Of a stretch of 64,000 nt of DNA, positions 18,653 through 64,000 are shown piece after piece. Numbering within the stretch: the first letter of the stretch is position 1; the number at the start of each line of letters is the position of its first letter. The stretch is from Entophlyctis helioformis (lineage: Eukaryota > Chytridiomycota > Chytridiomycetes > Chytridiales > Chytriomycetaceae). The stretch lies in assembly GCA_025526915.1 (NCBI GenBank), contig JAHLKH010000101.1, positions 31,226 to 95,225 of the forward strand. Reading direction: 5' to 3'. A program made the position numbers and the translations under genes. The notes beneath the pieces are model-generated. The model was not told where the DNA came from. It saw nothing but the letters and a program-made list of their open reading frames with translations, and made no database searches.

Positions 18653-18703
<51 letters not shown>

Positions 18704-20414
18704 GAGGCGGCTCGTACAGCATGGTCTTGAAGAACGCTGCTGGCAGGCTGTCGTCGCCTGGCGCCTTGCGGGCCTGCATCTTGCGCAGAGTCGCGCTGAT
18801 CTCGTCCCAGTCGAGCGGGGCATCAGCCTCCTCGGCGTGGCGTCTGACCACGCGGGACGGAGGCTGCAGGGTCGCACCCAGCCGCTCCCAGTGGTCGCGG
18901 TTGAGGCTGTTGGATTGGGCAGCGCTGGCAAGGTCTCTGTAGTGGTCATGCCACACAGCGCAGATGTCGTCAGGCTCGTAGCTGATCAGATCGGTGCCTG
19001 ACCGGCGGATGGGCGACGTGATGGCAGACGAGCGAGCGCCGCCCTTGGCCATGAAGCGGATCCTGGCCCAGGCCGCCCCCACGCGAGAGTCGGCAAACAT
19101 CTCGGAGAGGTTAGCCGTGTGCTTGCGCCAGGCAGCAGTGTCGTCCTGCCTGGAGAGCGTCCTGGCTGCCCGCTTGGCATCGCGAAAGGCGTCGAGTGCC
19201 GTGGCGACGGCCGCAGGGTCAGCGTGGCGATCCTCGGCGAGCGCACGCCAGGTGTTGTAGGCGACATGGCGAGCTTGCAGGGCTCGGACGGTGGCCGGCC
19301 TGAGCTTGCGGTGGAAGGCAGGTGCGTTAGCTGGCTGGCGGACCTGAGTGTCGTCGGCGACTCTCTGGGCCGTCTCGACAAAGGCGTTGGTGAGCGTGTT
19401 GATGTCGGTGTCCTCGGGCAGATCCGCCAGGGGCTGCCAGTAGTTGTGCGTCGCGATGGCAACCTCGCGCGCCTTGCAGAGAGCTGGGTGGATGCGGGCG
19501 GGCGCCTCGGAACGGCAGAGGAGCAGCACGGAGGCGGGTGCGGATCGGCCAGTGGTCGGAGCAGTCGTGGTTCCTGTCCACACGGGTGCTGCAGAGCAGG
19601 GCAAGGGCAGCATCGTTAACCACAAAGTGATCAATGGAGGACCATCTGGCGCCTTGTCTGAAGCCATGGCGCGTGGCAGGGCTGCCAGAGAACTGCATGA
19701 CGCGCAGCCCAGGCCCCAGCCTGCGATGCGGCGACGGAGCATCTGCTTGGTCGTGTTCCAGTCACCACCGATGATGACTGGGCGGTCGTGCTGCATGGCG
19801 TGATTGAGGGCATCGCGGATGGCGTTGAACGTGGCGGGACGCTCAGAGTGACCGACGTAGACCGAGCCGACGAGCCAGACACAGCCAGGTGTCAGGTTGG
19901 GGGCACGAGCAAGGATGAGCGATCCGGGGACGCCTCTGACTTCCGAAGCAGCCAGATGCGAGGGGAAGCCGAGCGCGAGGCCGCGGATGTTGGGGCCGGT
20001 GGCGGGGTGGTGCAGCACGTGGTAACCAGGGACCGTGAAGGGAAACGCGCCCGTCACAAAGTTGGTTTCCTGTAGAGCAAAGATCATGGGGTTGACAGAG
20101 CGGAGGATGGAACGCAGCTCAGGCCTCTTCCCAAGGCCACCATTGATGTTCCAAGAGAAGATCAGGCGGGACGCGCCAGCGGCAGGCATCGCGGCACCAA
20201 CCGCAGCAGCAGCAGGGGCAGCGCGAGGAGGAACAGCAAGGTGCACACGACGGAAACGACCAGCGCATGCGGGAAGAGGCTTGCCGCATGTACTTGAAGA
20301 TCTCATCGAGGTGGAGGACGGGGCGTACGCGGTAGATGCTGCGGAATGGCTTGCAGTGGAACTTGACTTGGATGGCGTTTCCAGTGCGCAGACGCTCGGG
20401 GAGGATCTGGGCAA
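16400..20414 (-). pseudogene. LINE ORF2: endonuclease-reverse transcriptase, frameshifted
   Basis: On the minus strand, the endonuclease domain begins with LIFSWNINGGLG and has the catalytic LQETNF and GGDWNTTK motifs. Its C-terminal part (SSIDHFVV, SDHWPI) lies in another frame (about 19698-19460), so there are two frameshifts within the endonuclease. The reverse transcriptase has KAPGDDSLPAAFFKTML, AFVDLRKAFDTVPFEALLWK, RGVRQGCPLSPILFNLFIND and the catalytic GLLFADDLVLL. Frame changes occur near 18430 and near 17650. The C-terminal region has a Cys/His cluster, CCILCNQSLNGTHEWAHFVV, followed by SC. The stop is at 16400-16402. A polyglutamine tract sits between endonuclease and reverse transcriptase. 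The domain order and the C-terminal knuckle fit the Tad/I-like LINEs of fungi; the clade was not tested. Confidence 0.88.
18654..18702. repeat. CTG/CAG triplet run in LINE ORF2
   Basis: About 16 CTG triplets on the plus strand encode polyglutamine in the minus-strand LINE ORF2, just before the proline-rich PPQPLPTLQEYLQQPPPP stretch and the RT palm region. The tract is in frame. Confidence 0.85.
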
Positions 20415-20881: not shown

Positions 20882-21205
20882 TCCACTCGAGGCATGCGCT
20901 GGCTGGCCACAAGAAGCAAAAAGGAGCAAAAATGTCGAGCGGAGTGGTGCATGCGGTGGGGTTCGAACCCACGCAGGCTTTCGCCTATAACGTCTTAAGC
21001 GTCACGCCTTAGACCACTCGGCCACACATGCGCAAAACCTCCAGTCGAAATTCCCGCACATTGTCTGTTTGAACGCTACCTCTGAAAACAGCCTCAGCGT
21101 GAGACACGTGAGACATGAGACATCTGCAACGAGCAGCACAGCTGGTGGTGGTTGTGCAAGAGCAGCCCAAGACTGCGAGGCAAAGAGGGACGTGAGACAG
21201 ACGTG
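20882..21205 (-). repeat. tRNA-Leu cassette, copy 1
   Basis: This block of about 320 bp holds 170 bp of upstream sequence, the tRNA-Leu(UAA) gene and about 50 bp downstream. It is closely matched by plus-strand 30455-30773. Shared landmarks include CCCTCTTTGCCTCGCAG, the upstream GTTCAAACAGACAATGTGCG, the tRNA, T-runs, and GCCAGCCAGCGCATGCCTC. In both places LINE sequence starts at or just after the right end of the cassette. Confidence 0.8.
20948..21031 (-). tRNA. tRNA-Leu (anticodon UAA)
   Basis: This is a class II tRNA of 84 nt without an intron. The acceptor stem GCATGTG pairs with CGCATGC. The D arm is GCC..GGC. The anticodon stem TGACG/CGTTA carries the loop CTTAAGA with anticodon TAA. 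The variable arm is AGGC-GAAA-GCCT, and the T arm is GTGGG-TTCGAAC-CCCAC. The discriminator is A. Runs of T downstream (ATTTTTGC, CTTTTTGC) suit Pol III termination. The gene appears intact. An identical gene sits at 30623-30706. Confidence 0.95.
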
Positions 21206-30454: not shown

Positions 30455-30773
30455 TGTCCCACGTCCCTCTTTGCCTCGCAGCTTTGGGCAGCTCCTGCAC
30501 AACCACCACCAGCTGTGCTGCTCGTCGCAGATGTCTCATGTCTCACGTGTCTCACCCTGAGGCAGTTTGCAGAGGTAGCGTTCAAACAGACAATGTGCGG
30601 GAATTTCGACTGGAGGTTTTGTGCATGTGTGGCCGAGTGGTCTAAGGCGTGACGCTTAAGACGTTATAGGCGAAAGCCTGCGTGGGTTCGAACCCCACCG
30701 CATGCACCACTCCGCTCGTCATTTTTGCCCTTTTTTTGCTCCTTGTGGCCAGCCAGCGCATGCCTCATATGGA
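30455..30773 (+). repeat. tRNA-Leu cassette, copy 2
   Basis: Plus-strand counterpart of 20882-21205. Upstream flank, tRNA and downstream T-runs match closely, with a few substitutions. The homology fades upstream of about 30455, just beyond the HDAC stop, and at the right end after GCATGCCTC. A truncated LINE is inserted at its right edge. Confidence 0.8.
30623..30706 (+). tRNA. tRNA-Leu (anticodon UAA), second copy
   Basis: Identical in structure to the gene at 20948-21031, including the acceptor stem, anticodon TAA (30657-30659), four-pair variable arm and T arm. It is followed by ATTTTTGCCC and a longer T run, suitable for Pol III termination. It lies 196 bp past the HDAC stop codon. Confidence 0.95.
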
Positions 30774-31568
30774 CCGCACCAAGCTCCGTATTGCCCGTAC
30801 CAGCCTGCTTTCCCCCAAGTCCGATCTCGCCACCGCCTTCTTCGCCCGCCAGTTCACAGACATCAGCTTCGCCAACTCCCCTTGCTTCGGCTACGACCTT
30901 GCCGATGGCGTCCGCACCCTGCTGCTCGCCCGGATCGACGGCCTGTGGACGCTCAAGTTCGCCCTCCGCCTCAACCTCCTCGCCGCCAACCACCCCTTCA
31001 CCGACGGCTGCTGCATCCTCTGCAACCAGAGCCTGAACGGCACCCACGAGTGGGCTCACTTTGTTGTCAGCTGCACCGGCCTCGCCATCCAACGCGACGA
31101 CGCCAATCTCGCCCCATTCATTGCCCAGATCTCGGAAGCCATCGAACACAAACTCCCCGAATCCAACGATCCCGCCGCTCTCGCCGCGCTCGGCTTCGAC
31201 GACGATCTTCTGGCTACGTTTAGGACCATCCGAGTATCTACAAGAATCGACCAAGTGTACATAACGCTCCTCGGCGGAGGAGTTCTATCCGGTGTTGCGG
31301 ACATTACAGAGTCTTGGCTCTGTGGTGACCAGCAACAAGTCAATGCACCTGGAGACGTGCGTCCACTCGCCTCGCAAATGTGCGCATTTCTTCAGGCGGC
31401 CCATGGTGTGTTCCAGCGAACTTTATGGATACATCACCATGGACGTGTCGGACCAGGGGGATGACATAACTGAGGGATCTACGCACGGCCTAAAGCTCGA
31501 AAGGGTATGGCATCTAGTGTCTTGGGGACTGGGAATCTTCTTGGAATGAACTTTGGCATCACCTAAAA
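30774..31568 (+). mobile_element. 5'-truncated LINE copy with target-site duplication
   Basis: It corresponds to the last about 800 bp of the LINE at 16292-20897, in opposite orientation. It begins inside ORF2 (RTKLRIARTSLLSPKSDLAT) and keeps an open frame through the CCILCNQSLNGTHEWAHFVV knuckle to the TGA at 31462-31464. It ends in CACCTAAAA. The 15-bp sequence CATGCCTCATATGGA flanks it at 30759-30773 and 31569-31583, the hallmark of target-primed insertion. The frame is intact, so the copy may be younger than the long one. Confidence 0.92.
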
Positions 31569-38554: not shown

Positions 38555-39862
38555 TTACAGCCCCCCTTGACGAGAGATCCCCATGAGGCGGTTCCTCGGC
38601 ACAAGAAAGAGAGGCAGCATGAGCATTGCCAAGCTGAACACCTGCAATACGATTGCTACGACGCAGGGGAACAGAGGCGTTGCGATCCACTGGAGCAGGC
38701 ATGCGGTGAGTCGGTTGAGGTGCAGGTGGGCGGGTGTCCAATAAGCAGACAGGTACTGATCCAGCAGCTCAGGTGCAGTCTCGCGCAGCTCGGCCTCTGA
38801 GCGGTACTCGTTGTGTTGCGGGCCGTAACCGAGGTACGAGACCACAAAGGAGCGGTGGCCGTTGCGAGCGACCTTGTGTCCAACAATCGCGTCAATCTCC
38901 CATTCAACTGCTGCATGATCATCAGCAAAGGCGACTGCAGGCGGCTGAGCAGGCAGTGGCCGGCCTGGGAAAGCGGCGGCCGGATCGCGGTACGGCTTCA
39001 GCAGACGGATGTGGAACCACGGATGCAGACGATGCATGGTCGGATGCAGAGCCAGCTTGCAGTTGAGACCATCCAGTGCAGCGTTGACTTCTGTGATCGG
39101 GAATGGACACAGCCAGTTGGGCAGGAACGCATTGGGGCGGTGTGTGTCGGTGGGCCACACAATGCCAGCGGCTTGCAGCATGACCATGTCGCCAACAGCA
39201 TAGGCAGGAGCATCCCGACGGTGGCGATCGGCGTTGCGCTTCTGTCGTTCTTGAGCCTTGGTCAGGTTGGCTGTGGCATCCACGCGAGCCTTGTCAACGG
39301 CAGCAAGCAGGTCGCGGACAGCAGGCGGTGACGATGCTGCAGGCTCGTGTGGCAGCGTGCGAGGCTCGAGGCTCAAGGCGAGGAAGTACGGAGCATAGCC
39401 AGTCGATGCGCTTGGAGCAGAGTTGAGGGCGTGGACAGCCGCATCGAGTATGTGCTCCCAGTTGCTGCCGCGGTGGTTGGCGTACTTGGACAGCAGGTCC
39501 TTGAGCGTGCGGATGGTGCGTTCGGACTGGCCGTCGGTCTCCTGGTGGCGGGCCGTTGCCATGACTTGCTCAATGTCCAGCGCCGCACAGAGCGCCGTCC
39601 AGAAGGCAGACAGGAAGCGAGCGTCGTGGTCCGAGACGATAGACGACGGCAGGCCGTGGCCAGCAAGCACCCATCGGTTGAGGAACAGCGCGGCAAGATC
39701 CTCGGCAGTCGCATCGCGTCGCGTCGGCACGCACTTGACAAGCTTTGTCAGGCGATCCACAATCACAAACACAGCGTTGTTGCCCTCATCTGACATGGGC
39801 AGCAAGGCAATGTCGCACGCCACAGACTGGAAGCGGTCGGCAGGGATGGGCAGCAGGTCCAG
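38555..39862 (-). mobile_element. Truncated Ty3-type chromovirus fragment A (integrase core to chromodomain)
   Basis: The minus-strand frame starts at PADRFQSVACDIALLP and carries the integrase D-D-E core (VVDRLTKLVK region, VSDHDARFLSAFW, QETDGQSERTIRTLKDLL). A chromodomain follows, with WEIDAIVGHKVARNG and SYLGYGPQHNEYRSEAELRE. RT, RNase H and the integrase zinc finger are absent. The 3' end reaches a polypurine tract (GTCAAGGGGGGC) and the TGTAAC that begins the LTR, then loses homology. Unlike the copy at 60284-62941, the C-terminus continues into a hydrophobic tail (CVVAIVLQVFSLAMLMLPLF). The frame is open throughout. The upstream junction is shared with fragment B. Confidence 0.88.
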
Positions 39863-39865
39863 CGC

Positions 39866-39972
39866 ACGTTCATAGACACCGAGACGTTCAACAAGCACGC
39901 GCTCAAGACCGCCACCGAGTCGCCGTTCCAGATCCTGCTTGCGTCGGGCGAGATCAGCAAGGCCGACGACGA
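39866..39972 (+). repeat. Exon-like segment duplicated at the Ty3 fragment junction, copy A
   Basis: Plus-strand sequence encoding KTATESPFQILLASGEISKA directly abuts the truncated integrase. The same segment abuts the same truncation point at 49668-49780. Identity ends at GACGACGA(A/G)GTGCG. I do not recognise the protein; its coding-like codon usage suggests an exon of a host gene. Confidence 0.7.
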
Positions 39973-40954
39973 AGTGCGGCCACTGCATGTGTCTCGGTCC
40001 ATGTACAACCGTCTGTGCACTCGCTTTCCAGACCAAGCCAGTGCAGACGGCGACGACTTTGGCGCCTTTCTCAACCGCTACGCGACCGACACCTATAGCT
40101 CAGGCGATCTCCTCAAATTCGCTCGCCTCCGCCACGTTCCCATGCGCAACTGCTGGTAAAATCTTGTCGACTTCTCGTATCCGATCGCTCTTGGCTGGAA
40201 GGCGATCAAGTTTGGTTTCACAAGACTCCTCAAGCACCTTGTTGCGCACCATGGCGTTGATCTCTGCAAGTTCAAGAGTTATGGTGGATCCATGGCGATG
40301 GATATAGCTGCTTCGTTTGGCCACTTTGACATTCTCAAGATGCTGCACTATGCCGGCAACACATCGTGCTCGTATCGTGCGATGGACGTGGCGGCAATGC
40401 AAGGGGCTCTGAATATCGTGCCGTTTTTGCATGTCAACCGCACAGAAGGATGCACAGCAAGGGCGATGGATAGCGCAGCCATGAAAGACCACTTTGACAT
40501 TGTGCAGTTTCTGCATGCCAACCGCACCGAAGGGTGCACGGTCCGCGCGATGAACTATGCTGCGTTGTCTGGCTGCTTTGAGATTGTCCAGTGGTTCCAT
40601 GCCAATCGCCGCGAGGGATGCACAACCGAGGCGATGGATTTCGCGGCAGATGGCGGCCATATCGACATTGTGCAGTGGCTGCATGCCAACCGCACCGAAG
40701 GATGCACTGTAAAGGCTATCAACATTGCAGCCAATAGGAGCCACCTCGAGGTCGTGCGGTTCCTGGTCGACCGCGGCTATCCGTTCACCTTTGATGCACT
40801 CCGTTATGCGGCGACTGCCGCGATTCTTGGTGTTCTGGTTGACAGCCTGTCCCTTGCGCGTGCCAACGAGATGCTGCAGATCGCTAGACGCACAGGCGGA
40901 CTCACGAATCTTGTTGCTCGTCTTGAGCGGGCGGTTGCTGAGAAGCAGGCGTGA
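39973..40954 (+). pseudogene. Ankyrin-repeat protein gene, 5'-truncated and with an internal stop
   Basis: In a single frame, VSRSMYNRLCTRFPDQ, GDLLKFARLRHVPMRNCW, then TAA (40157-40159), NLVDFSYPIALGWKAIKFGF, and after GGSMAMDIAASFGHFDILK five ankyrin-type units of the form LHANRTEGCTxxAMDxAA. The neighbouring gene at 41433-42930 has VSSRSIFHRLWERFP and MIPMRHMW at equivalent places and reads through there, so the TAA is probably a lesion. The N-terminal (F-box side) portion is missing at the junction with the duplicated exon-like segment. The part from 40292 (ATG) onward could still be expressed as a shorter ankyrin protein of 220 aa. Related repeat proteins are expanded in chytrids. Confidence 0.75.
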
Positions 40955-41432: not shown

Positions 41433-42930
41433 TCAGACTCGCCCAACAGACAGGCAAGAGACGCTTAAAGTACGGCTTGTTTCTGCGTCTGGAATATTTG
41501 GCCATTTCAGCCGCTGCTCTGCTGTCAGTGATCGGGCGAGAAGCCGTGCAATGTCGTCATTCGCAGCATCTGCAATGGCCTTAAACGTGAAACCCTCGGT
41601 GCGGTTGGCAAGCAGCCACTGCACAACGTTGAGATGCCCATACGTGGCTGCGTTATCCATCGCCTTGGTCGTGCATCCCTCGCGTCGGTTGGCATGCAGC
41701 CACTGCACCACCTCCAAATGCCCTCGTTGTGAAGCCCCGTTCATCGCCGAAGTCGTACATCCTTCTGTCCGATGCTCGTGCAACCACTTGACCGTGTCCA
41801 AATGACCATTCGCTGCAGCATTGTCCATCGCCTGAGTCGTGCATCCCTCCGTCCGATGCTCGTGCAGCCACTTGACCGTCTCTAAATGACCATTCCTTGC
41901 TGCATCGTCCATGGCATCTACTGTCGCATTCGCGCCTCTGGCCGAAAGCATCTTGATGACACCGAGAGACCCATCAAATGCAGCATGGTCAATGCGGCTG
42001 GTTGAAGCAATGAGGCCGAATTCCTCGGCCGCCTCCAAAGAGACGAGCTTCTTGTCCAGCATGTACTCGAGGAACGCCGCGTGATCGCCATGGATCGCAA
42101 TCATAGCGAGGTCTTCGTGTGGCATGAGCGGAAGGCAGTCGAGCCACATGTGCCGCATCGGGATCATGCACTGCCCAACGCGAATGCCGCCGTATTGGTC
42201 GTCGTCTCCGTCATGTTGAGTGTTGTAGTAGGGAAAGCGTTCCCACAGCCGATGGAATATGCTGCGGCTGCTGACATGTGCAAAGTCCTCGGAAGCAGAT
42301 CGGCGTCCGGAGAAGAGCAATGTCGCCCTGCCAGTCCTGCTTGAAGGCATCGACCCACAGCGCTCTCTTGGCATGCGGTCCATCTCTTCGACATCGAGAT
42401 GGCCGCACAGCAGCTGAGTGAGCGGGCCAGCATGCAGCAGGATCTTGGCTTGCAGCTCGTGCGGATACAGCGTCCACCAGTCGGTTGCCTTGACGGCACG
42501 GCCAGCCTGCAGCCGGGCAGCCTCGGTGTAGCGGCTGCTGGGAGGGTGGCTGTGACAGCGGCATCCACAGGGCACGGCTGTGGCTGTTGCTGCGGCTGCT
42601 CGAAGGCGGCTGTTGGTGCAGGTGCAGTGGCAGGAGACGCACAAGAGCAGCGAAGCGAGGCACGAGGTCTGTGCGGCCAGCAGCCACAAGAGCGTCGTTC
42701 ACAGCAGCCACAGTGTCGTGCAGAGTCTGGCTGTCCACGATGTCGCTGCTGCTGCTGCTGCCCAGTCGCCGTTGTCTGCGTCGTCGCTCGCTGGCATCAC
42801 TTGGCTCATTGTGGCTGATCTGGATGCGATGCGATGCCGAGATGTGCGACAAGCGAGCATCGTTCAGCGTGTCTGATGGTGATGCTGCAGCACAGTGCAC
42901 TTGCTGCCTTGACGAGTTGCACATTGCCAT
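41433..42930 (-). CDS. F-box-like/ankyrin-repeat protein, with an apparent local frame disturbance
   Basis: From the C-terminal side, five ankyrin-type units are clear (DAARNGHLETVKWLHEHRTE, NAAANGHLDTVKWLHEH, GHLEVVQWLHANRREG), preceded by HVSSRSIFHRLWERFPYYN and MRHMWLDCLPLMPHEDLAMI. The N-terminal part has TDWWTLYPHELQAKILLHAG, which looks like an F-box helix. Between about 42370 and 42290 the family-like reading (RALWVDAFKQDWQGDIALL) sits in a different frame from the flanks, so two compensating indels, or an unrecognised intron, are needed. The most N-terminal sequence (TLHDTVAAVNDALVAAGRTD, LVPRFAALVRLLPLH) is in the second frame too. Probable role: substrate adaptor of an SCF-type ligase; inferred only. 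Confidence 0.65.
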
Positions 42931-48244: not shown

Positions 48245-49664
48245 TCAAGATGTTTTATTGGCTTTGAGGGCGACGGTCTGGCAGTTGTAGTACACAGGAT
48301 GACAGATAGTGATGAAGGCGTGTGTGCTGGCTGCCAGGGCAATGATGGACGCGATGGCATCAGACAGCTGGAAACACATTGAGCAGCATTGCAGCCCACT
48401 GACAAGAGATCCTCCAAGGAGCGACCACCACAAAGTAGACTCGCAATGTGTGTTAAACGTTGGTGGCAGCCAGGCGACTGCCAAGACAAAGATCAGAAGG
48501 AGCCGGCATGCGGCGAGTCGGTTGAGGTGCTGGTTGGCGGGGTCCAATAAAGCAGCGAGTACTGGTCCAGCAGATCAGGTGCAGTCTCGCGCATCTCGGC
48601 CTCGGAGTGGTACTCATTGTGTTGCGGGCCGTAACGAGGTACGAGACCACAAAGGAACGGTGGCCGTTGCGAGCGACCTTGTGTCCAACAATCGCGTCAA
48701 TCTCCCATTCAGCTGCTGCAGGGTCATCAGCAAAGGCGACTGCAGGCGGCTGAGCAGGCAGTGGCCGGCCAGGGAAAGCAGCGGCCGGATCGCGGTACGG
48801 CTTCAGCAGACGGACGTGGAACCACGGATGCAGACGGTGCATGGTCGGATGCAGAGCCAGCTTGCAGTTGAGACCATCCAGTGCGGCGTTGACCTCTGTG
48901 ATCGGGAATGGACCCAGCCAGTTGGGCAGGAACGCATTGGGGCGATGCGTGTCGGTGGGCCACACAATGCCGGCGGCTTGCAGCATGACCATGTCGCCGA
49001 CAGCATAGGCAGGAGCATCCGGCGGTGGCGATCGGCGTTGCGCTTCTGCTGTTCTTGAGCCTTGGCCAGGTTGGCTGTGGCATCCACGCGAGCCTTGTCA
49101 ATGGCAGCGAGCAGGTCGCGGACAGCAGGCGGCGACGATGCTGCCGGCTCGTGTGGCAGCGTGCGAGGCTCAAGGCCAAAGGCGAGAAGTACGGAGCATA
49201 GCCAGTCGATGCACTTGGAGCAGAGTTGAGGGCGTGGACAGCCGCATCGAGCATGTGCTCCCAGTTGCTGCCGCGGTGGTTGGCGTACTTGGACAGCAGG
49301 TCCTTGAGCGTGCGGATGGTGCGTTCGGACTGGCCGTCGGTCTCCTGGTGGCGAGCCGTTGCCATGACCTGCTCAATGTCCAGCGCCGCACAGAGCGCCG
49401 TCCAGAAGGCAGACAGGAAGCGAGCGTCGTGGTCCGAGACGATAGACGACGGCAGGCCGTGGCCAGCAAGCACCCATCGGTTGAGGAACAGCGCGGCAAG
49501 ATCCTCGGCAGTCGCGTCGCGTCGCGTCGGCACGCACTTGACAAGCTTTGTCAGGCGATCCACAATCACAAACACAGCGTCGTTGCCCTCGGCCGACATG
49601 GGCATGAATGCAACGTCGCAGGCCACAGACTGGAAGCGGTCGGCAGGGATGGGCAACAGGTGCA
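48245..49664 (-). mobile_element. Truncated Ty3-type chromovirus fragment B
   Basis: Same piece as fragment A: integrase core from ADRFQSVACDVAFMPM through VSDHDARFLSAFW and GQSERTIRTLKDLL to the chromodomain WEIDAIVGHKVARNG. One frameshift near 49018 (in the GACGGTGGCG region, one base missing relative to the other copies) and another near 48640 break the frame. Past the chromodomain a hydrophobic tail is encoded (LLLIFVLAVAWLPP, IASIIALAASTHAFITI) that differs from the 60-62 kb copy. The upstream junction at about 49664 is the same as in fragment A. Confidence 0.85.
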
Positions 49665-49667
49665 GCG

Positions 49668-49780
49668 CACATTCATTTAGACCGAGACGTTCAACAAGCG
49701 CGCACTCAAGACCGCCACCGAGTCGCCGTTCCAGATCCTGCTTGCGTCGGGCGAGATCAGCAAGGCCGACGACGAGGTGC
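49668..49780 (+). repeat. Exon-like segment at the Ty3 fragment junction, copy B
   Basis: It matches 39866-39972 and continues further: after GEISKADDEVREP it reads VLKDTAIVQVPLWMAATVPK before a GTCT microsatellite at 49859. The longer readable extension suggests this locus is the source exon and copy A the derivative, or that both came from an unseen source gene. Confidence 0.65.
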
Positions 49781-49856
49781 GCGAGCCTGTGCTCAAGGAC
49801 ACTGCGATCGTGCAGGTGCCGCTGTGGATGGCTGCCACGGTGCCCAAGATGCCTGC

Positions 49857-49915
<59 letters not shown>

Positions 49916-50293
49916 CATGGGTCTGTCTGTGCACGCATGTCGCGCTTGCAATAAACTGCCGCCTCGTGCCTGCACTTGCCCGCACTTGCTGCTCTCTGCC
50001 CGTCGCCCGTCTCGTCCGGACTCTTGCTCGCGCACACACACACACACACACAGACACACACAGCATGGCTGCTCAACGGCCACCGACACAGCCAGCCACG
50101 CAGCGTGCTGGGCCTGCCCGCCACAGGGGCTCAGTGCCCAGCAACCCGCAGCCGCAGCCTCGTTCAGCAATGCCCCGCCCACAGCGCACCCGCTCGACTC
50201 GGCTGGTGCTGCAACCAGCACACTGCTGGCACGGCGGCCTCACACAGACACTTCACCACCAAGCACAACGACGACGACGACAACCACTGCTAG
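49781..50293. other. Spacer with GTCT and CACA microsatellites upstream of the Notchless gene
   Basis: A perfect GTCT (CTGT) tetranucleotide array spans about 49859-49916, and a CA run lies at 50033-50062. An ATG at 50065 opens a short Pro/Gln-rich frame that could be a 5' exon of the Notchless gene, but I cannot connect it. Confidence 0.6.
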
Positions 50294-52151: not shown

Positions 52152-55100
52152 ATGGTGGCGTCTGCAAGTACTGACGCTGTTGCTGCAGCACCACCGAGCA
52201 ACAAGCGACAAGCGACGACCAACGACCATGACCCTCAACGACAAGGAACCCCCCTCGACAGGCCGCCACCACCAGCGGTTGCCGCCCCTGCTGCTGAGCA
52301 CGCTGTGCACCAACGCGGAAACGCCACCTCCTTTGACGCCCCCTCCATTGACGCCTCTTCGACGGCCATCACCAAGCCTCCTCGAGCCATCGCTGCTCCA
52401 AGTGTGGCCGCCATCAGCACCAAGAGCAAGCCGAGCAAGTGGTACGACCGTCTCATCTGTGGCAGCGTGCCCGACATCGGCCAGCAGGCAACTCCTGCCA
52501 AGAGTGCCTCGCCCTCTGTCTCGACCGTCGAGGATGACGAGCAGCGATCCGCTCCTCCAAACGCTGTGCCAATCAGCATCGATGTGGCTGAAGTCAATGC
52601 CAACAAGGTGTGGCCGTGCACACTGCCGCTGCTACCGCTGCTTCTGCTGCTGCCGCTGCTGCCATTGACTGACACACACACAGCTCCGCTCTGAGCTCGT
52701 GGTGATGCTCGAAGAGGAGACGGCTCGCATCAAGACTGCCAATCCATCCAAGCATGACGATCTCGTCAATGCCATCGACGGGCATGTCGACAGGATGCTC
52801 GAGCTGCGGAGCCAGATCCTCGAGGAAGCCCGTTCTGCTGCCGCCGTCACTAAAGAGGACTCGCTGGCCCAGGCTGCTCGAGTAGAACAGACCAAGAAAG
52901 TGGACAAGGCGTTCGACAAGCTCAAGAGCGTTCTCGGTTCGGCACTTGAGAACCATGAGATGCTCACGACCGCCTGCGACTTGTTCCTCAAGGAAGTTGG
53001 CGAGGACGGGGTTGACATTGACACGGCCACCGTCTCCAACATCGCCACGCTCAGCAGCACTGTCGTCGAGTTTGTCGACAGGATCCGCGAGGCTCCCAAG
53101 AAGACCGACGGTAGCAGGGTCAAGGCCGTCACGCGTTTCCTCGCCACCAACGGTCTCGAAGTCGTCTCGACCGTCATCTCTGCTGCCAAGGCTGCATCGC
53201 ACTTTGTGCCGATCCCAGGCATTGCCGACGCCATTGGCATCATCGACAACATCCTCACGAATGTCAAGGACGGCGTTGACAGCATTGCCAATCTGAAGGA
53301 CTTCCTGGACGACCTCAAGGAGCTCAAGGCGATCCTTGCACCGATGGCCAACCAGTGGTTCTCTGCCGATGTGCGCGGCAAGTGCGCCGAGCTGGTGGAT
53401 CTGCTCAACGAGGTTCAGGCATCCATCAAGGCTGGCACCAGGATGACTAGCAGATGGTTCATGCTTGTCATTGGAGCCAAGAAGGCCGAGGTTGAAGCCC
53501 AGATGGCTGGATACAGAAGCCGTCTTGCCAAGATCAAGGAGGTGCGTGACGATCGCTTTGCTCTCATGGATCTGTGCACTTGGCTGACTGACACTCCTCC
53601 CGCCAGCTGATCTCGCTCGCCATGCAAGTGGACTCTGCTGTCATGCTTATGCACACGGCCAAGAAACTCAACCTGATCGACACCAAGACAGACAGGATCC
53701 TGCAGTGCGTGTTGCTGCCAGTGGCTGCCACCGCGGCACCATGTCCATCCACTGACATGCGACGCTGCACAGATTCCTGCGCCCGCGTACTCTCCACCTT
53801 CGCCATGACGACTTTCTCATCTCCGCCGTCCCTGAAGACTCCAAGGGCACATTCGCGGTGTACAAGGCCAAGATGGATGGCAGCGAGATCATCGTCAAGG
53901 AGTTCAAGCGCAGCCTGGACGATGCTTTGTGTACCACTATCAAGAACGAGGCACGCCAGTGGTTCAAGCTCAGTCACGCCAACCTGCTGCCCATCACAGG
54001 CATCTGTCTCGAGGGCAAGGACAGCCGGAAGCCATTCATTGCCATGCCGTACATGGACTACGATCTCGAGTCATACTTGGCCAAACACTCAAAATCAACC
54101 ACAAAACAGAGTCTACGCATTCTGGCTTGTATTGCGCGTGGCCTCAAGTACCTGCACGTGTATGCACCTGGCGCACCAGTCGTCCATGGCAGTCTCTCCA
54201 TGAGCCGCATTCATCTCGGTCAGTTGACCATCTTGTTGTTGCTGCTGATGCCAACAGGCGGGCACTCACACAGACAACTTGATGACAGACTCCAAGGGCA
54301 GCAAGGTCAAGATCAGTGTCGGCATGCAGTCTATTCGCGCCTTGGCAGGATCCACCCACAGCACCAGTGATGCCAAGTACATGGCGCCTGAAGCCAAAAC
54401 AAGAGGAATTGGACAAGTCAGCATCGGCAACCCTCAAGACCAGTCAATGGACAAGGCGGATGAACAGCAGAGGCTTCAGCCACCTGTTGATGTCTATGCA
54501 TTTGGCGTCCTTGCTCAGGATGTCTTGGCACAGGCAGCCGACCAACTCCAGCGACCAGACAACATCAGTGGCGATGTGTGGCAAAGTCTGCAGGCTACTC
54601 TCAAGACCTGCCTCAACATCAAGCCTGATGATCGCCCCAACTTTTCCTCAATTGTCAAGGCATTGGCCATGGCAACCAGGCCAGTTGATGGTGTGTCATT
54701 GCTTGTGTTCTGTTCATCCACTAGCAGTCTGCTTACCACATTGTGTTCAAATGATAGCTGCTGTTGTCAAGGTGCAAGACGGTGCCTCTGATCTCGAAAT
54801 CTTGTGCTCCATCTTCCCAGAGTGGGCCAAGGACAGCGAGATCACAGTCAACTCTGAGCGTCCAACAGGCGAGCTGATGAATCTCTATGACGATTCTGCC
54901 AAACGCATCAATCCAAAGTGGCAGCTGGAGTGGGATGAGCAGCACAACTTGACTGCCCTGTAAGTATTGCTGTCTGCATGCTGGTTGACAAGCAACTGAT
55001 GCACCAAACATTGCTATGAGCAAACAGGCGGTTGACTGGTTGCAGTCTGTCTGGCAACATTCCCAAGGATATTGGTCGCCTGAAGATGCTCAAGGAGCTG

Positions 55101-58100
55101 TGGCTTGACCAGAATGAGCTTGATGGTGAAATCCCACCAGGCATCTGCCAGCTGACCAAGTTGACATCATTGTGAGCATGCATCTTGATGGCCAGCTGGA
55201 TATGGCATTCTGGCTGACATTGAGCAACAGGCGGCTTGGACAAAACAACCTGCAGGGATCAGTTCCAAACTTTATCTTCAAGCTGACTCATCTTGATGAG
55301 CTGTGAGTTGTGTGTGCCTGGTGGCTGCTGTAGTGAAGTTGGCTGACATTGAGTGCAATCCAAAGCGACATTGCTGATAATCAGATCACACAGTTGCCAG
55401 CATCCATTGGCAAGCTCACTCAACTCAAAACACTGTGAGTACCATGCCTTGTCTGGCTTGACCTGGCAATCACTCACACACCCAAAGCAATGTGCACAAC
55501 AACCTGATCACAGAGCTCCCAGATACCATTGCCAATCTAACCAATCTGACAAAGCTGTAAGGACTGTGCTGCTCTGCCTTGATTGAACATGGCTGACCTT
55601 TATTGGACAGGCTGGTTGGAGGCAAGGCAATCAGTGACATCTCTGTCATTGGCAAGATGATCAGTCTGGCAGAGCTGTATGTAGACTTTCATCTACTGCA
55701 GATGATTGTGGCAGCTGATAGACAGTGACTTCCAGGAAGATTTCCAAGTGTGGACTTCAAGTGCTTCCTGAAACCATTGGTGATCTGGAAAACTTGGAGA
55801 TGCTGTGAGTTAGTTTTGCCTTGTAGCATGTGGTTGATTCTGATGCTTGACATGATGGAACAAAGGGACATTTCAGGAAATGAGCTGAAGGAGGTGCCAA
55901 GTTGCATTTACAAGCTGAAAAATCTAGCTGAACTGTAAGCATGGCTATGTCTCATGTATTTGGTTGCAGATGGGCTGACTTGATGGTCACAGGAACATTT
56001 CCAACAACAGCCTGGAAGGCAGCATCCCACCTGTGTTGGGCAATCTGGTCAATCTGACTGGGCTGTAAGGATTGCATTGTCTTGTGTGCCTGTTTGCAGA
56101 TGGACTGACATGGTGAGTGTAGGGGTCTGTGGAAAAACAAGCTGGAAGGAAGCATTCCAAGTGAACTGGGCAATCTGGTCAATCTGACTCAGCTGTAAGC
56201 ATTGCATTGTCTTGTGTGCCTGATTGCAGATGAACTGACATGGTTATTGCAGGCGTCTTGACAAGAACCAGCTGTCAGGAACCATCCCAGCTGAACTGGG
56301 CAATCTGAGAAATCTGACTCAGCTGTAAGCATTGTATAGCCCATGTGCATGTATGCAGATAGACTGACATGGTGAATGTAGTGATCTTTCAGCAAACCAG
56401 CTGTTAGGCAACATTCCAAGAGAACTGGGCAAACTGGTCAATCTGACTTGGCTGTAAGCATTGCATTGTCTCATGTGCCTGTTTGCAGATGGACTGACAT
56501 GGTGAGTGCAGGTATCTACATGAAAACCAGCTGTCAGACAATATTCCAACTGAGCTGGGCAATCTGGTCAATCTGACTGCACTGTAAGCATTGCATTGTC
56601 TCATATGTCTGCTTGCAGATGGACTGACATGGTGAGTGTAGGGGTCTGTGGAAAAACAAGCTGGAAGGAAGCATCCCACCTGTGTTGGGCAATCTGGTCA
56701 ATCTGACTCAGCTGTAAGCATTGCATTGTCTTGTGTGCCTGATTGCAGATGAACTGACATGGTTATTGCAGGCGTCTTGACAAGAACCAGCTGTCAGGAA
56801 CCATCCCAGCTGAACTGGGCAATCTGAGAAATCTGACTCAGCTGTAAGTATTGCATAGCCCCATGTGCATGTATGCAGATAGACTGACATGGTGAATGTA
56901 GTGATCTTTCAGCAAACCAGCTGTCAGGCAACATTCCAAGAGAACTGGGCAAACTGGTCAATCTGACTTGGCTGTAAGCATTGCATTGTCTCATGTGCCT
57001 GTTTGCAGATGGACTGACATGGTGAGTGCAGGTATCTACATGAAAACCAGCTGTCAGACAATATTCCAACTGAGCTGGGCAATCTGGTCAATCTGACTGC
57101 ACTGTAAGCATTGCATTGTCTCATATGTCTGCTTGCAGATGGACTGACATGGTGAGTGTAGGGGTCTGTGGAAAAACAAGCTGGAAGGAAGCATCCCACC
57201 TGTGTTGGGCAATCTGGTCAATCTGACTCAGCTGTAAGCATTGCATTGTCTTGTGTGCCTGATTGCAGATGAACTGACATGGTTATTGCAGGCGTCTTGA
57301 CAAGAACCAGCTGTCAGGAACCATCCCAGCTGAACTGGGCAATCTGAGAAATCTGACTCAGCTGTAAGTATTGCATAGCCCCATGTGCATGTATGCAGAT
57401 AGACTGACATGGTGAATGTAGTGATCTTTCAGCAAACCAGCTGTCAGGCAACATTCCAAGAGAACTGGGCAAACTGGTCAATCTGACTTGGCTGTAAGCA
57501 TTGCATTGTCTCATGTGCCTGTTTGCAGATGGACTGACATGGTGAGTGCAGGTATCTACATGAAAACCAGCTGTCAGACAATATTCCAACTGAGCTGGGC
57601 AATCTGATCAATCTGACTGCACTGTAAGCATTGCATTGTCTTGTGTGCCTGTTTGCAGATGGACTGACATGGTGAGTGTAGGGGTCTGTGGAAAAACAAG
57701 CTGGAAGGAAGCATCCCAGCTGTGTTGGGCAATCTGGTCAATCTGACTCAGCTGTAAGCATTGCATTGTCTTGTGTGCCTGATTGCAGATGAACTGACAT
57801 GGTTATTGCAGGCGTCTTGACAAGAACCAGCTGTCAGGAACCATCCCAGCTGAACTGGGCAATCTGAGAAATCTGACTCAGCTGTAAGTATTGCATAGCC
57901 CCATGTGCATGTATGCAGATGGACTGACTTGTTGAGTGCAGGGGTCTTCACCAAAACCAGTTGTCAGGAGTCATCCCAAGGGAACTGGGAAAGCTTGTCA
58001 AGCTGAAGTTACTGTAAGCATTGCATTGTCTCATGTGCCTGTTTGCAGATGGACTGACATGATGAGTGTAGGGGTCTCAACAACAACAAGCTGTCTGGAA

Positions 58101-58111
58101 GCGATCAATGA
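52152..58111 (+). CDS. Helical-domain / pseudokinase / LRR receptor-like protein, 30 exons
   Basis: The coding exons 52152-52607, 52684-53541, 53607-53704, 53773-54218, 54274-54690 and 54758-54959, plus 24 LRR exons, sum to 4209 nt, exactly 1403 codons with the stop. The N-terminus is Pro/Ala-rich. A long alpha-helical domain follows (about residues 150-480), including LVVMLEEETARIKTANPSKH and a hydrophobic patch VVSTVISAAKAASHFVPIPG. The kinase-like domain keeps the ATP-binding Lys (EIIVKEFKR) and YMAPEA. It has HGSLSMSRIHL instead of the HRD loop and KISVG instead of DFG, so it should be catalytically dead. The LRR tail comprises about 25 repeats of type LxxNxLxGxIPxELGNLxNL. Helical bundle plus pseudokinase recalls MLKL-like executioners, and the LRRs recall recognition receptors; this combination is my inference. 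No signal peptide or TM is visible. Confidence 0.85.
54960..58111 (+). repeat. Modular LRR exon-intron array
   Basis: LRR exons: 55046-55171 (two repeats), then 55231-55302, 55366-55434, 55488-55556, 55611-55676, 55736-55804, 55866-55934, 55993-56064, 56123-56194, and fourteen spaced about 130 bp from 56253 to 58013, with a truncated last exon at 58072-58111. Exons are 66, 69 or 72 nt, all bounded by phase-2 introns (CT|GT donors, next exon supplying the third base). From 55993 on, introns are 57-58 bp and nearly identical, with GACTGACATGGTGAGTG(C/T)AG at the 3' end. The first seven single-repeat exons are diverged; the later ones are near copies. Confidence 0.95.
56253..57883 (+). repeat. 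520-bp four-exon tandem block within the LRR array
   Basis: Blocks start at 56253, 56772, 57292 and 57812 (period 519-520 bp). Each block has four exons: RLDKNQLSGTIPAELGNL, DLSANQLSGNIPRELGKL, YLHENQLSDNIPTELGNL and GLWKNKLEGSIPPVLGNL. Three blocks are complete and the fourth has only the first exon. Copies differ at only a few bases in exons and introns, showing recent unequal crossing-over or gene conversion. Confidence 0.95.
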
Positions 58112-60135: not shown

Positions 60136-60341
60136 TGACAGACGGCGGGTTTCAGTACACAAGGTTATTCATTGATATAGCTTCGTAGTAATAAAGGCAT
60201 ATGCACGGGCAATACCTGACAGACGGCGGGTTTCAGTACACAAGGCGACGACTGGGGCAAGTCGCCTTGTGGTCTGTCAGGATTCAAGTGGGACGCGCGA
60301 CCGGTTGCACGCGTGTCACGTGATCGCGGCTGACTGTTACA
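60136..60341 (-). mobile_element. Ty3-type 3' LTR with a duplicated terminal segment
   Basis: On the minus strand TGTAACAGTCAGCC (starting 60341) follows a polypurine tract TCAAGGGGGGC. Homology to the solo LTR at 58519 runs to about 60216. A sequence of about 28 bp, TGTACTGAAACCCGCCGTCTG with flanks, occurs at 60217-60245 and again at 60136-60164, so a second LTR end abuts the copia remnant. Confidence 0.7.
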
Positions 60342-62941
60342 GCCCCCCTTGACGAGGGATCCTCTGGAGAACAATCGGCACAGACAAAGAAGGAAGCCAC
60401 ATTCACGTCCAATGCATCCCCAGCGTGGCGGCGGCTGCGACGGACCGGCGGCTGTGCTGGGAGGGCGGCGAGGTACTGGTCCAGCAGATCAGGTGCAGTC
60501 TCATGCAACTCGGCCTCCGATCGGTACTCGTTGTGTTGCGGGCCATAGCCGAGGTACGAGACCACAAAGGAGCGGTGGCCATTGCGAGCGACCTTGTGTC
60601 CAACAATCGCGTCAATCTCCCATTCAGCTGCTGCAGGGTCATCAGCAAAGGCGACTGCAGGCGGCTGAGCAGGCAGTGGCCGGCCAGGGAAAGCAGCGGC
60701 CGGATCGCGGTACGGCTTCAGCAGACGTACGTGGAACCACGGATGCAGACGATGCATGGTCGGATGCAGAGCCAGCTTGCAGTTGAGACCATCCAATGCG
60801 GCGTTGACCTCTGTGATCGGGAATGGGCCCAGCCAGTTGGGCAGGAACGCATTGGGGCGATGCGTGTCGGTGGGCCACACAATGCCGGCGGCTTGCAGCA
60901 TGACCATGTCGCCGACCGCGTAGGCAGGAGCATCCCGGCGGTGGCGATCGGCGTTGCGCTTCTGTCGTTCTTGAGCCTTGGTCAGGTTGGCTGTGGCATC
61001 CACGCGAGCCTTGTCAATGGCGTCGAGCAGGTCGCGGACAGCAGGCGGCGATGATGCTGCCGGCTCGTGTGGCAGCGTGCGAGGCTCGAGGCCAAAGGCG
61101 AGGAAGTACGGAGCATAGCCAGTCGATGCGCTTGGAGCAGAGTTGAGGGCATGGACAGCCGCATCGAGCATGTGCTCCCAGTTGCTGCCGCGGTGGTTGG
61201 CGTACTTGGACAGCAGGTCCTTGAGCGTGCGGATGGTGCGTTCGGACTGGCCGTCGGTCTCCTGGTGGCGGGCCGTTGCCATGACCTGCTCAATGTCCAG
61301 CGCCGCACAGAGCGCCGTCCAGAAGGCAGACAGGAAGCGAGCGTCGCGGTCCGAGACGATAGACGACGGCAGGCCGTGGCCAGCGAACACCCATCGGTTG
61401 AGGAACAGTGCGGCAAGATCCTCGGCAGTCGCATCGCGTCGCGTCGGCACGCACTTGACAAGCTTTGTCAGGCGATCCACAATCACAAATGCAGCATCGT
61501 TGCCCTCGGCCGACATGGGCATGAAAGCAATGTCGCAGGCCACAGACTGGAAGCGGTCGGCAGGGATGGGCAGCGGGTGCAGCAGACCGGCAGGAGCCTG
61601 CGTCGACGAGTTGAACCGCTGGCAGGCGTCGCACGAGCCAACAAAGCGGCCGACCGACGCAGCCATGTCCGGCCAGTAGTAGTGCGCACGCAGACGGCCG
61701 TATGTTTGTTCGCGGCCCTGGTGGCCAGCATGAGGCGGCTCGTGGTACGAGGTGAGCAGGTCTGTGCGCACTTGACCCTCTGGGATGTACATGCGGCCCT
61801 CGTAGAACCACAGGCCGTCGACCAGCTCGAGCTTGGCTGCCAACTGACGCTCGTGCAGAGCAGCATCAGCAGGATCGGCCTTCCAGCGGGCAACGTCCAG
61901 CAGGAACGGATCGGCATCGAGCAGCGGGCGAACGCGGTCGGCAATGTCGGGTGTTGCGGTGGTCAAGGCATCCACTTCAACCTTTGCACGGCATCGAGCG
62001 CAGTGCGGGGCAACAGTCACATGGCGCGACAGCATGTCGGCAAGGTTGTTGTCGCCCCCCTGGATGTACTGGACCACAGCATCAAACTCTTGCAGCTCCA
62101 TGATCCAGCGAGCCTGGCGGTACGACAGCTTGGGCTGCGTCGAGATCCAGCGCAGCGATGCATGGTCGGTGTGGATGGTGAAGTGCACGCTGAGCAGGTA
62201 GTGCCGGTACTTGTCGCAGGTGTCCACAATCGCCAGCATCTCGCGCTCGTGGGTCGGGTAGTTGCGTTCCGCATCGTTGAGCTTGCGCGAGTATAACGAG
62301 ACCGGATGGATCTTGGCCGTGCCGTCTGCATCGACATGCCTCTGGCCAATCCAGCCACCAATGGCAAACTCGGATGCGTCCGTGTACACGTGTGTCTCCA
62401 GCGACGGGTCAAAGTACTTGAGCACCGGAGCGTTTGTGATGGCGTCCAGAATAAAGTCCACAATCGCCCACTTGGCCTCGTCCATCACAAAGGGCACGTC
62501 CTTGTGCAGCATGTCCGTGAGCGGCACACAGATGTCGGCGTAGTCCTTGATGAAATCCTTGACCCACACGACCTGCCCAATGAAGTGTCGCAGATCGCCA
62601 ACAGACCCAATGATCGGCCGAGTCTTCAGTGCCAGCCGATGCTTGTCCTGGATCGAGTAGCCGTCACCCAGCAACAGATGACCGCAGAACTCGAGCCGTG
62701 ACGAGAAGAACTCGCACTTGGACATCTTCAGGCGGAGCGATTCGGCGCGCAGACGACGGAACACTTCCTCCAGGTGCCACAGGTGGTCTGCCTCGGTCTC
62801 CGAGTAGATCAGGATGTCGTCCATGTAGGCGACAACGCAGACGTCCAGCAGGTCGTGGAAGATGCGGTTCATCATGGCGTTGAAGGTGGCAGGAGCGTTG
62901 CAGAGCCCAAAGGGCATCACCTTGAACTGAAACCAATGCAC
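60284..62941 (-). CDS. Ty3-type chromovirus pol (RT to chromodomain), 5'-truncated
   Basis: 885 open codons on the minus strand. RT begins inside the palm (FKVMPFGLCNAPATFNAMMN) and keeps the catalytic CVVAYMDDILIYSE. RNase H shows VYTDASEFAIGGWIG. The integrase has the HHCC finger (HEPPHAGHQG ... GSCDACQRF) and the D-D-E core (ACDIAFMPM, VSDRDARFLSAFW, GQSERTIRTLKDLL). A chromodomain follows (WEIDAIVGHKVARNG, SYLGYGPQHNEYRSEAEL), and the stop lies within the LTR. Gag, protease and the start of RT are missing because the element is cut at 62941 by satellite DNA. The intact frame suggests recent insertion before truncation. Confidence 0.92.
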   Translation of the reverse strand: MHWFQFKVMPFGLCNAPATFNAMMNRIFHDLLDVCVVAYMDDILIYSETEADHLWHLEEVFRRLRAESLRLKMSKCEFFSSRLEFCGHLLLGDGYSIQDKHRLALKTRPIIGSVGDLRHFIGQVVWVKDFIKDYADICVPLTDMLHKDVPFVMDEAKWAIVDFILDAITNAPVLKYFDPSLETHVYTDASEFAIGGWIGQRHVDADGTAKIHPVSLYSRKLNDAERNYPTHEREMLAIVDTCDKYRHYLLSVHFTIHTDHASLRWISTQPKLSYRQARWIMELQEFDAVVQYIQGGDNNLADMLSRHVTVAPHCARCRAKVEVDALTTATPDIADRVRPLLDADPFLLDVARWKADPADAALHERQLAAKLELVDGLWFYEGRMYIPEGQVRTDLLTSYHEPPHAGHQGREQTYGRLRAHYYWPDMAASVGRFVGSCDACQRFNSSTQAPAGLLHPLPIPADRFQSVACDIAFMPMSAEGNDAAFVIVDRLTKLVKCVPTRRDATAEDLAALFLNRWVFAGHGLPSSIVSDRDARFLSAFWTALCAALDIEQVMATARHQETDGQSERTIRTLKDLLSKYANHRGSNWEHMLDAAVHALNSAPSASTGYAPYFLAFGLEPRTLPHEPAASSPPAVRDLLDAIDKARVDATANLTKAQERQKRNADRHRRDAPAYAVGDMVMLQAAGIVWPTDTHRPNAFLPNWLGPFPITEVNAALDGLNCKLALHPTMHRLHPWFHVRLLKPYRDPAAAFPGRPLPAQPPAVAFADDPAAAEWEIDAIVGHKVARNGHRSFVVSYLGYGPQHNEYRSEAELHETAPDLLDQYLAALPAQPPVRRSRRHAGDALDVNVASFFVCADCSPEDPSSRGAVTVSRDHVTRVQPVARPT

Positions 62942-64000
62942 TCAGTGACGCCCCCAAATCCAAATCATGTCCTTCGTCCTTCGTCCCTCGTCCTTCGTCC
63001 TTCGTCCTTCGTCCTTCGTCCCTCGTCCCGCGTCCTTCGTCCTGTGAGGATTTGCATCGAAAACTGGTCGCCGAAATCGTTGATTCATCGAAGACAGAGT
63101 GCCGTTAGGGCAGTCGACTGTGGGAATAAACAGCACCTGGTTAGGGAGAAAGCCCTGCCAATGCTCTTTCCAAAGCACCAAACCTCATGTCTCTACCATG
63201 CCTGCAGCCCCCACAATCCTTGAACAGAGCGAGGGGGTCCAATTTCGCTCGCCACTCGTCACTCGTCCTTCGTCCTTCGTCCTTCGTCCTTCGTCCTTCG
63301 TCCCGCGTCCTTCGTCCTTCGTCCTTCGTCCCGCGTCCCTCGTCCTTCGTCCCTCGTCCCGCGTCCTTCGTCCCTCGTCCTTCGTCCCGCGTCCTTCGTC
63401 CCTCGTCCTTCGTCCCTCGTCCTTCGTCCTGTGAGGATTTGCATCGAAAACTGGTCGCCGAAATCGTTGATTCATCGAAGACAGAGTGCCGTTAGGGCAG
63501 TCGACTGTGGGAATAAACAGCACCTGGCTAGGGAGAAAGCCCTGCCAATGCTCTTTCCAAAGCACCAAACCTCATGTCTCTACCATGCCTGCAGCCCCCA
63601 CAATCCTTGAACAGAGCGAGGGGGTCCAATTTCGCTCGCCACTCGTCACTCGTCCTTCGTCCTTCGTCCTTCGTCCTTCGTCCTTCGTCCCGCGTCCTTC
63701 GTCCTTCGTCCTTCGTCCCGCGTCCCTCGTCCTTCGTCCCTCGTCCCGCGTCCTTCGTCCTCGTCCTTCGTCCCGCGTCCTTCGTCCCTCGTCCTTCGTC
63801 CCTCGTCCTTCGTCCTGTGAGGATTTGCATCGAAAACTGGTCGCCGAAATCGTTGATTCATCGAAGACAGAGTGCCGTTAGGGCAGTCGACTGTGGGAAT
63901 AAACAGCACCTGGCTAGGGAGAAAGCCCTGCCAATGCTCTTTCCAAAGCACCAAACCTCATGTCTCTACCATGCCTGCAGCCCCCACAATCCTTGAACAG
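62942..64000. repeat. Satellite of about 386 bp with degenerate TCCTTCG heptamer arrays
   Basis: Three heptamer tracts (about 62966-63043, 63262-63430 and 63655-63816) are built from TCCTTCG, TCCCTCG and TCCCGCG. They alternate with a conserved unit of about 220 bp starting GTGAGGATTTGCATCG at 63044, 63431 and 63817 (spacing 387 and 386). The unit includes GGGAATAAACAGCACCTGG and CCACAATCCTTGAACAG. The array continues beyond the window. Confidence 0.93.

Follow-up and report, generated by a model that had tools for sequence, protein, structure and literature searches.

The locus and its gene model

We analysed a stretch of 64,000 nucleotides (the window; C101:31226-95225) from the chytrid fungus Entophlyctis helioformis, whose assembly comprises 29.57 Mb in 482 contigs. 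On its forward strand, at 52152-58111, lies a gene whose protein reads as a helical domain, a TKL pseudokinase and a C-terminal series of leucine-rich repeats (LRRs). The gene belongs to a family in this genome, its repeat array has grown by duplication within the gene, and amino-acid change in the array is concentrated on the concave face of the repeats. The features of the gene, all on the forward strand, are as follows.

52152-52607, forward: exon 1, a low-complexity N-terminus without a signal-peptide-like start, its start codon uncertain (gene model; the start of public protein P0010 differs; hydropathy)
52684-53704, forward: exons 2-3, encoding a helical N-terminal domain at about residues 152-470 and separated by a short intron at 53542-53606, exon 3 having 98 nt (gene model; exon 2 matches on 20 contigs; low-confidence helical models)
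53773-54690, forward: exons 4-5, predicted TKL-type pseudokinase domain
54758-54959, forward: exon 6, conserved linker (FPEWAKDSEIT...) (gene model, relatives)
55028-55171, forward: exon 7, two LRRs in one exon (gene model, relatives)
55231-55934, forward: exons 8-13, six fixed single-LRR exons, matched position by position in paralogs (gene model, paralog comparison)
55993-58013, forward: exons 14-29, the array, with sixteen exons of 72 nt that each hold one LRR, and introns of 57-58 nt (gene model, self-comparison)
56123-56641, forward: four-exon unit copy 1, 519 bp, 98.1% identical to copy 2 and 96.9% to copy 3
56642-57161, forward: four-exon unit copy 2, 520 bp, 98.9% identical to copy 3
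57162-57681, forward: four-exon unit copy 3, 520 bp (unit self-comparison)
57682-57941, forward: incomplete fourth copy of the unit, comprising two exons with their introns (unit self-comparison, gene model)
58072-58111, forward: exon 30, a truncated LRR (GLNNNKLSGSDQ) and the stop, where P0010 instead uses an internal acceptor (gene model, P0010)

The gene was modelled as 30 exons with 1408 codons and a stop (1408 amino acids), joined by 29 introns of 53-76 nt, all of them GT-AG. An earlier note on this DNA, made from the letters alone, had likewise counted 30 exons but 1403 codons; an alternative acceptor at the junction of exons 4 and 5, where P0010, a public protein of the same gene (1438 amino acids), lacks five residues, would explain the gap. 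The LRR exons of P0010 are identical to ours, with 571 consecutive residues equal through exons 7-29, and 816 of 822 aligned non-LRR positions agree. Both protein ends are uncertain, because the first and last exons differ between the two models. The 58-nt array introns of nine family genes (n = 98) share a consensus from donor to acceptor, including an internal TTTGCAG that lies 23 nt upstream of the real acceptor, and it is this internal site that the P0010 model apparently takes for its last exon. As a source of in-frame isoforms the site was rejected, since splicing at its AG, at intron bases 34-35 of the consensus, would lengthen the exon by 23 nt and so put it out of frame.

One repeat per exon

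Exon 7, whose 144 nt encode two LRRs and whose 3' end is TT rather than CT, is followed by 22 exons (55231-58013) that each encode a single LRR, with a length of 72 nt in 17, 69 nt in four and 66 nt in one. All 22 start in phase 2 and end in CT before the GT of the donor, so that a leucine codon is split. The earlier note had described this arrangement (a two-repeat exon, then 22 one-repeat exons of 66-72 nt cut throughout at the same codon position, CT/N), and both the gene model and the LRR exons of P0010 confirm it. Upstream of the intron that opens the LRR part, the five introns have phases 0, 0, 2, 1 and 1, so the uniform phase is a property of the LRR part. From lengths and phases, any one of the 22 exons can be skipped with the frame kept, which bears out the note's statement that such exons can be lost, gained or skipped in frame.

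The regularity of the LRR exons exceeds chance. Because exon and intron units are duplicated together, the 22 equal phases are best read as one property copied with these units and not as 22 independent events. The two-repeat exon 7 probably arose by intron loss, since in the more distant relatives L012, L016 and L025 these LRRs sit in separate exons. Not every LRR in the genome has an exon to itself: the divergent member C10 and the cousin C153 have open stretches of several LRRs.

Growth of the array by duplication within the gene

The window array contains three copies of a four-exon unit of 519-520 bp, 96.9-98.9% identical to one another, and a half copy. Its exons are 73-76% identical at lags of one to three exons and 96.5% identical at lag four. 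The note's proposal that repeats grow by recombination is supported by this unit, at 97-99% identity, in the form of duplication of whole exon and intron units. When nine genes were compared, the closest match of an array exon lay within its own gene for 74 of 136 exons, where 14.8 would be expected with random labels, and without the near-identical pair C165 and C68 the count is 73 of 108. The typical lag to the nearest relative is gene-specific, being mainly four in the window gene and two in C328. None of the 48 fixed LRR exons was nearest to an exon of its own gene, which is what position-specific exons should show.

C165 and C68, the two most similar copies at about 95% overall identity, showed no exon-sized gap in the array. 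A difference in their N-terminal exon was considered as a sign of a chimera and rejected; it amounts to patchy divergence in near-identical copies, and no breakpoint is claimed. A loss of repeats in the comparison of C184 with C96 was also rejected, the C96 array being shortened by inserted sequence. That insert carries a direct repeat and, by eye, a chromodomain-like reading on the opposite strand, and is probably a gypsy element. At lags one to three the introns of the window array are 85-86% identical, more than its exons, and intron divergence (K) is 0.14 against 0.37 substitutions per synonymous site (dS). The idea that the array introns are specially conserved was nonetheless dropped, since a control in the fixed part leaned the same way (ratio of intron divergence to dS 0.64, against 0.45 in the array).

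Amino-acid change on the concave face

Selection was examined in 133 array exons of 72 nt from eight genes (C165 was dropped as near-identical to C68, and other lengths were excluded), using Nei-Gojobori counts within genes and dS over all codons. The concave positions are 24, 2, 4 and 5, which we take from general knowledge of LRRs to be the x of xLxLxx. The ratio of nonsynonymous to synonymous change (dN/dS) was 1.69 at these positions (bootstrap 1.52-1.91), 0.06 at framework positions and 0.58 elsewhere, and the concave set ranks third among 1365 sets of four positions. The six fixed LRR exons, used as a control, showed no concave excess (0.54 against 0.59 for the rest), and dN/dS was 0.51 in the N-terminal exon and 0.42 and 0.58 in the kinase exons (6-7 sequences each). 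Change is concentrated at the four concave positions in the arrays and not in the fixed LRRs. This concentration of diversity at ligand-facing positions is support that the earlier note did not have.

Arrays of 69-nt exons pointed in the same direction, with ratios from 1.29 to 8.04 in the four scored of five tried (the remaining array was too poor in exons to be scored, and one that was scored had only five). The strongest case is the cousin C36 (14 exons): dN at concave positions was 0.70, whole-array dS was 0.109, and dS at the concave codons alone was 0.010. The median ratio of concave change to dS was 6.4 (4.2-10.7); its variation falls mostly in codons 2, 4, 5, 20 and 23. The kinase of C36 looks active (HGD and DFG by eye).

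The family and its position in the genome

Exon 2 finds matches on 20 contigs of the E. helioformis genome, all of them whole or partial related genes; as a search count this is a lower bound, yet certain contigs hold only fragments and others could represent haplotypes of a single locus. Outside this species, protein searches returned relatives with the full architecture from the chytrid Polyrhizophydium stewartii alone, and the other eight matches in one of these searches covered at most 26% of the query, two of them being listed without a figure.

A chain finder, which requires an exon length divisible by three and a frame, was applied to the window gene together with 20 further loci. It returned 304 candidate exons in 19 chains, spread over 15 of the 21 sequences and all on the gene strand. 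No chain of at least three exons was found in L009, L019, L020, L022, L024 or L026. Ten candidates are first halves of an unsplit two-repeat exon, and of the 294 left, 289 end in CT or TT. Lengths of 72 nt (184/304) and 69 nt (104/304) recur, as does a gap of 58 nt between chained exons (111/285). The evidence here is contiguity and intron length, not phase, because the finder imposes the frame. The cousin locus L027 (C36:114500-123500), an LRR gene with an intact-looking kinase, has on the minus strand an array of fifteen 69-nt exons, varying mostly at ligand-facing codons, followed by 72-nt exons of the window gene's type.

For sixteen of the 20 family loci a contig end is no more than 7 kb away, and such zones make up at most 22.8% of the genome. 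Telomere repeats of at least 72 bp occur on six contigs, of which three bear a family locus (hypergeometric 0.0011): C29 has a full gene with its array, C286 an N-terminal fragment, and C382 a copy without an LRR match in the stretches read. The contig of the window gene ends 5.9 kb downstream of it. At 62900-64000 the window holds a satellite-like repeat rich in CCTTCGT words, and this last 1.1 kb before the contig end has no telomere sequence.

Domains and predicted location of the protein

The protein is probably cytoplasmic: a hydropathy scan found no transmembrane-like segment, no stretch of 19 residues exceeding a mean hydropathy of 1.38, and a hydrophilic start. Among Pfam matches of P0010 no ROC-COR GTPase domain appeared at E up to 5, and no nucleotide-binding STAND domain (NACHT, NB-ARC) was found either; for the LRR part, Pfam matches with E values up to 1 include no LRRNT or LRRCT cap family. 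The kinase domain is predicted to be catalytically dead, as the HRD aspartate is missing in all 14 aligned rows that cover that stretch and no DFG was seen by eye. A kinase fold was found for the relative P0003 in a fold listing that covered its kinase region.

Just before the pseudokinase, Pfam MLKL_N appears below threshold in 5 of 11 full-length relatives scanned (P0008, P0009, P0015, P0006 and P0014) and not in P0010. Among cut pieces, 4 of 8 matched, the best at E 6.1e-5; of the cousins, C153 matched at E 0.04 and C36 did not. A profile search of PDB with the N-terminal domain returned no MLKL and no relative at all. The structure models of this domain are weak (mean pLDDT, a per-residue confidence score, 56.9 for the relative P0003 and 52.0 for exon 2), and helices are seen in both of these low-confidence models. 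An MLKL-like N-terminal output domain is suggestive only, a lead and not a result.

Comparison with known systems

Several published systems resemble parts of this gene. In brown algae, LRR-ROCO genes encode one LRR per exon, with exons of 72 bp in phase 2, four positively selected concave sites, exon shuffling and a proposed role as immune receptors, and splicing variants have also been reported (PMC11378527; Zambounis et al. 2012 as cited there). The exon design is shared with the window gene, in which 17 of 22 exons have 72 nt and 22 of 22 are in phase 2, whereas the domains differ: an LRR-ROC-COR GTPase there, a predicted helical domain with a pseudokinase and C-terminal LRRs in a fungus here. 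Tetrahymena has thousands of LRR genes with arrays of 90-bp phase-2 exons and a lineage-specific expansion, the youngest of which concentrate in subtelomeric and pericentromeric regions (PMC6564038). Equal LRR exons in arrays, phase-2 introns, lineage-specific expansion and, it seems, a concentration near chromosome ends are common to both, but exon size (90 bp against 66-72 nt) and number (thousands of genes against 20 contigs) are not, and no Tetrahymena-named protein was among the matches of our protein searches. The earlier note's description of an unusually clean design therefore needs correction, both cases having been published already.

Modularity of LRR exons is also described for human LRR genes including NLRP3, for which LRR exon skipping has been shown (PMC6642158), and in gonadotropin receptors all introns are in phase 2 (as told in PMC11378527); domains and organisms differ, and the likeness is drawn from the published descriptions. 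The note had also compared the gene with plant LRR receptors and variable lymphocyte receptors. The principle holds, the specifics do not: we found no transmembrane-like segment, LRR cap domain or sign of somatic assembly. Plant LRR receptor-like kinases have extracellular LRRs, a transmembrane helix and then the kinase, whereas here the kinase-like domain precedes the LRRs, and lamprey-type receptors have the LRRNT and LRRCT caps that we did not find.

Among fungi, allorecognition receptors of the NOD-like type (NLRs) are intracellular, with repeat sensors and in many cases MLKL-related N-terminal helical domains (PMC10197012, PMC12881547), and their repeats are predominantly not LRRs but others such as WD40 and TPR (PMC10197012). 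An intracellular repeat sensor with an N-terminal helical domain is what we predict here, although no nucleotide-binding domain was found in place of their NACHT or NB-ARC core. MLKL itself has an N-terminal four-helix bundle and a dead kinase domain, and it permeabilises membranes and brings about cell death; a dead kinase domain is predicted here from the missing motifs. Batrachochytrium, another chytrid, has four genes that join LRRs and a kinase in one protein without a transmembrane region (PMC2939053), a likeness that we draw from the description alone. The same source describes LRR pattern-recognition receptors as almost entirely absent from fungi, and fungal LRR adenylate cyclases as LRR proteins of signalling. 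The exon design was thus already known; the fungal host and the domain architecture appear to be new. Our searches turned up no paper on this gene family, nor any fungal family that combines such an architecture with a hypervariable face, which is no proof of absence, most of the subscription literature having been outside reach.

Interpretation

These genes form a family of LRR pseudokinases, so far seen in two chytrids only, and we consider it on balance probable that they are intracellular receptors that recognise parasites or other individuals. The family would then most likely be a recognition system that diversifies in the germline. In this picture the long LRR array would act as the sensor, and output would fall to the helical N-terminus together with the pseudokinase. 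The array would grow and turn over by duplication or unequal crossing-over of exon and intron units of 130 bp or of a multiple of that length, for instance 520 bp. Since both borders of every unit fall in phase 2 inside a leucine codon, each such event would preserve both the frame and the LRR solenoid, while selection would retain variants of the concave surface. The data show the anatomy of the gene, its family, the duplication within the gene and the concentration of change on the concave face; we infer the recognition function, the cytoplasmic location, the output mechanism and the timing of repeat turnover.

A more far-reaching version strikes us as possible but doubtful: intracellular receptors, often near chromosome ends, in which recombined exon arrays supply new concave surfaces, an MLKL- or HeLo-like killer domain is coupled to them through the pseudokinase, and the active-kinase LRR cousins C36 and C153 may act as upstream partners. 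If true, this would be an immunity or allorecognition system with sensor and executioner fused in one chain. A recognition family of LRR proteins in a chytrid would matter because fungi are described as near-devoid of LRR recognition receptors (PMC2939053) and their intracellular receptors favour other repeats (PMC10197012). It would also add to brown algae and Tetrahymena a further case in which phase-2 introns between equal LRR exons serve repeat turnover, and the evolution of non-self recognition in early-branching fungi would become testable in a sequenced organism.

Several observations weigh against recognition receptors. Many family members are not intact: the N-terminal exon has stops in C328, C96, C68 and C111; C27 and C318 lack kinase exons and their linker cannot be read in frame from the 98-nt exon 3, for which reason they were rejected as functional kinase-less variants; the array of C96 (L016, C96:88500-96500) is broken by an insertion at about 5221, after the tenth detected exon; C460 has no array in the 9 kb read of its 11.2 kb; and in the stretches read C286 and C382 have no LRR match and C242 stops after the kinase. 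The 20 contigs may include haplotypes of one locus, as with C165 and C68, and contig ends may be assembly breaks at repeats. The initial concave set was 2, 4, 5, 7 and 24, and position 7 was removed after its low variation had been seen; with all five positions the per-gene ratios to dS range from 0.90 to 2.03 and exceed one in seven of nine genes. When dS is taken from the concave codons alone (72-nt arrays, uncorrected proportion of synonymous differences 0.50) the ratio falls to about one, and only C36 remains extreme. Position 14, which was not assigned to the concave face, varies as much as positions 2 and 5. Repeats within a gene are not alleles, and their functional specialisation could mimic the pattern; moreover, three members of the selection set, C27, C68 and C328, are probably not intact. 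From early-diverging fungi, one survey reports MLKL-family homologs in Glomeromycotina only (PMC8778642), and either this counts against an MLKL-like N-terminus or the present family lay outside the survey.

Part of this evidence would suit passive growth of the repeats, in which unequal crossing-over close to chromosome ends multiplies phase-2 one-LRR exons that have no role in recognition, the concave positions being merely the least constrained. Uniform phase follows automatically from unit duplication, dS at the concave codons of the 72-nt arrays is itself high, and many members are damaged or partial. Against it, the fixed LRRs of the same genes have no concave excess, and in C36 a concave dN of 0.70 meets a dS of 0.01 at the same codons; the values of 0.06 for the framework and 0.42-0.58 for the N-terminal and kinase exons indicate that the proteins are kept. 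We regard passive growth as unlikely, though as the strongest of the alternatives.

Less likely again is an intracellular signalling or scaffold family that is unconnected with non-self recognition and serves, for instance, development or nutrient sensing. Kinase-like domains and LRRs are common in such proteins, fungal LRR adenylate cyclases being one example (PMC2939053), but expansion in the genome, a position at contig ends and a hypervariable concave face would presumably be unusual for them.

Alternative splicing that skips or combines LRR exons could make many receptors from one locus, by analogy with brown algal ROCO genes, for which splicing variants are published (PMC11378527). Each of the 22 exons could indeed be skipped in frame. 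Very short consensus introns favour constitutive, intron-defined splicing, and with array introns as short and as uniform from donor to acceptor as the 98 of 58 nt, we think such an isoform generator improbable. That the array is an assembly artefact with a wrong number of units, or the gene a dead pseudogene, is scarcely credible: assembly of near-identical repeats is difficult, the contig stops in satellite-like DNA 5.9 kb further on and many paralogs are damaged, but a single frame stays open across 30 exons with intact splice sites, purifying selection acts on the N-terminal and kinase exons among paralogs, and unit copies 1-3 differ from one another. Intracellular recognition receptors remain the reading that we prefer.

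Other elements in the window

Stretches resembling the reverse transcriptase of long interspersed nuclear elements (LINEs) lie at 16400-20414 (reverse strand), downstream of a tRNA-Leu(TAA) at 20945-21031 (reverse), and at 30682-31464 (forward), downstream of a tRNA-Leu(TAA) at 30623-30709 (forward), in each case on the same strand as the tRNA. A tRNA-linked retrotransposon of the kind without long terminal repeats is a possible reading, the LINE assignment having been made by reading open reading frames and not by domain search. By eye, Ty3/gypsy-like reverse transcriptase and/or integrase stretches were seen at 38555-40036, 48453-50124 and 60284-62941, all on the reverse strand. Open reading frames with ankyrin repeats at 40292-40954 (forward) and 41433-42689 (reverse) carry similar tandem repeats (HANRTEGCT... 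and alike).

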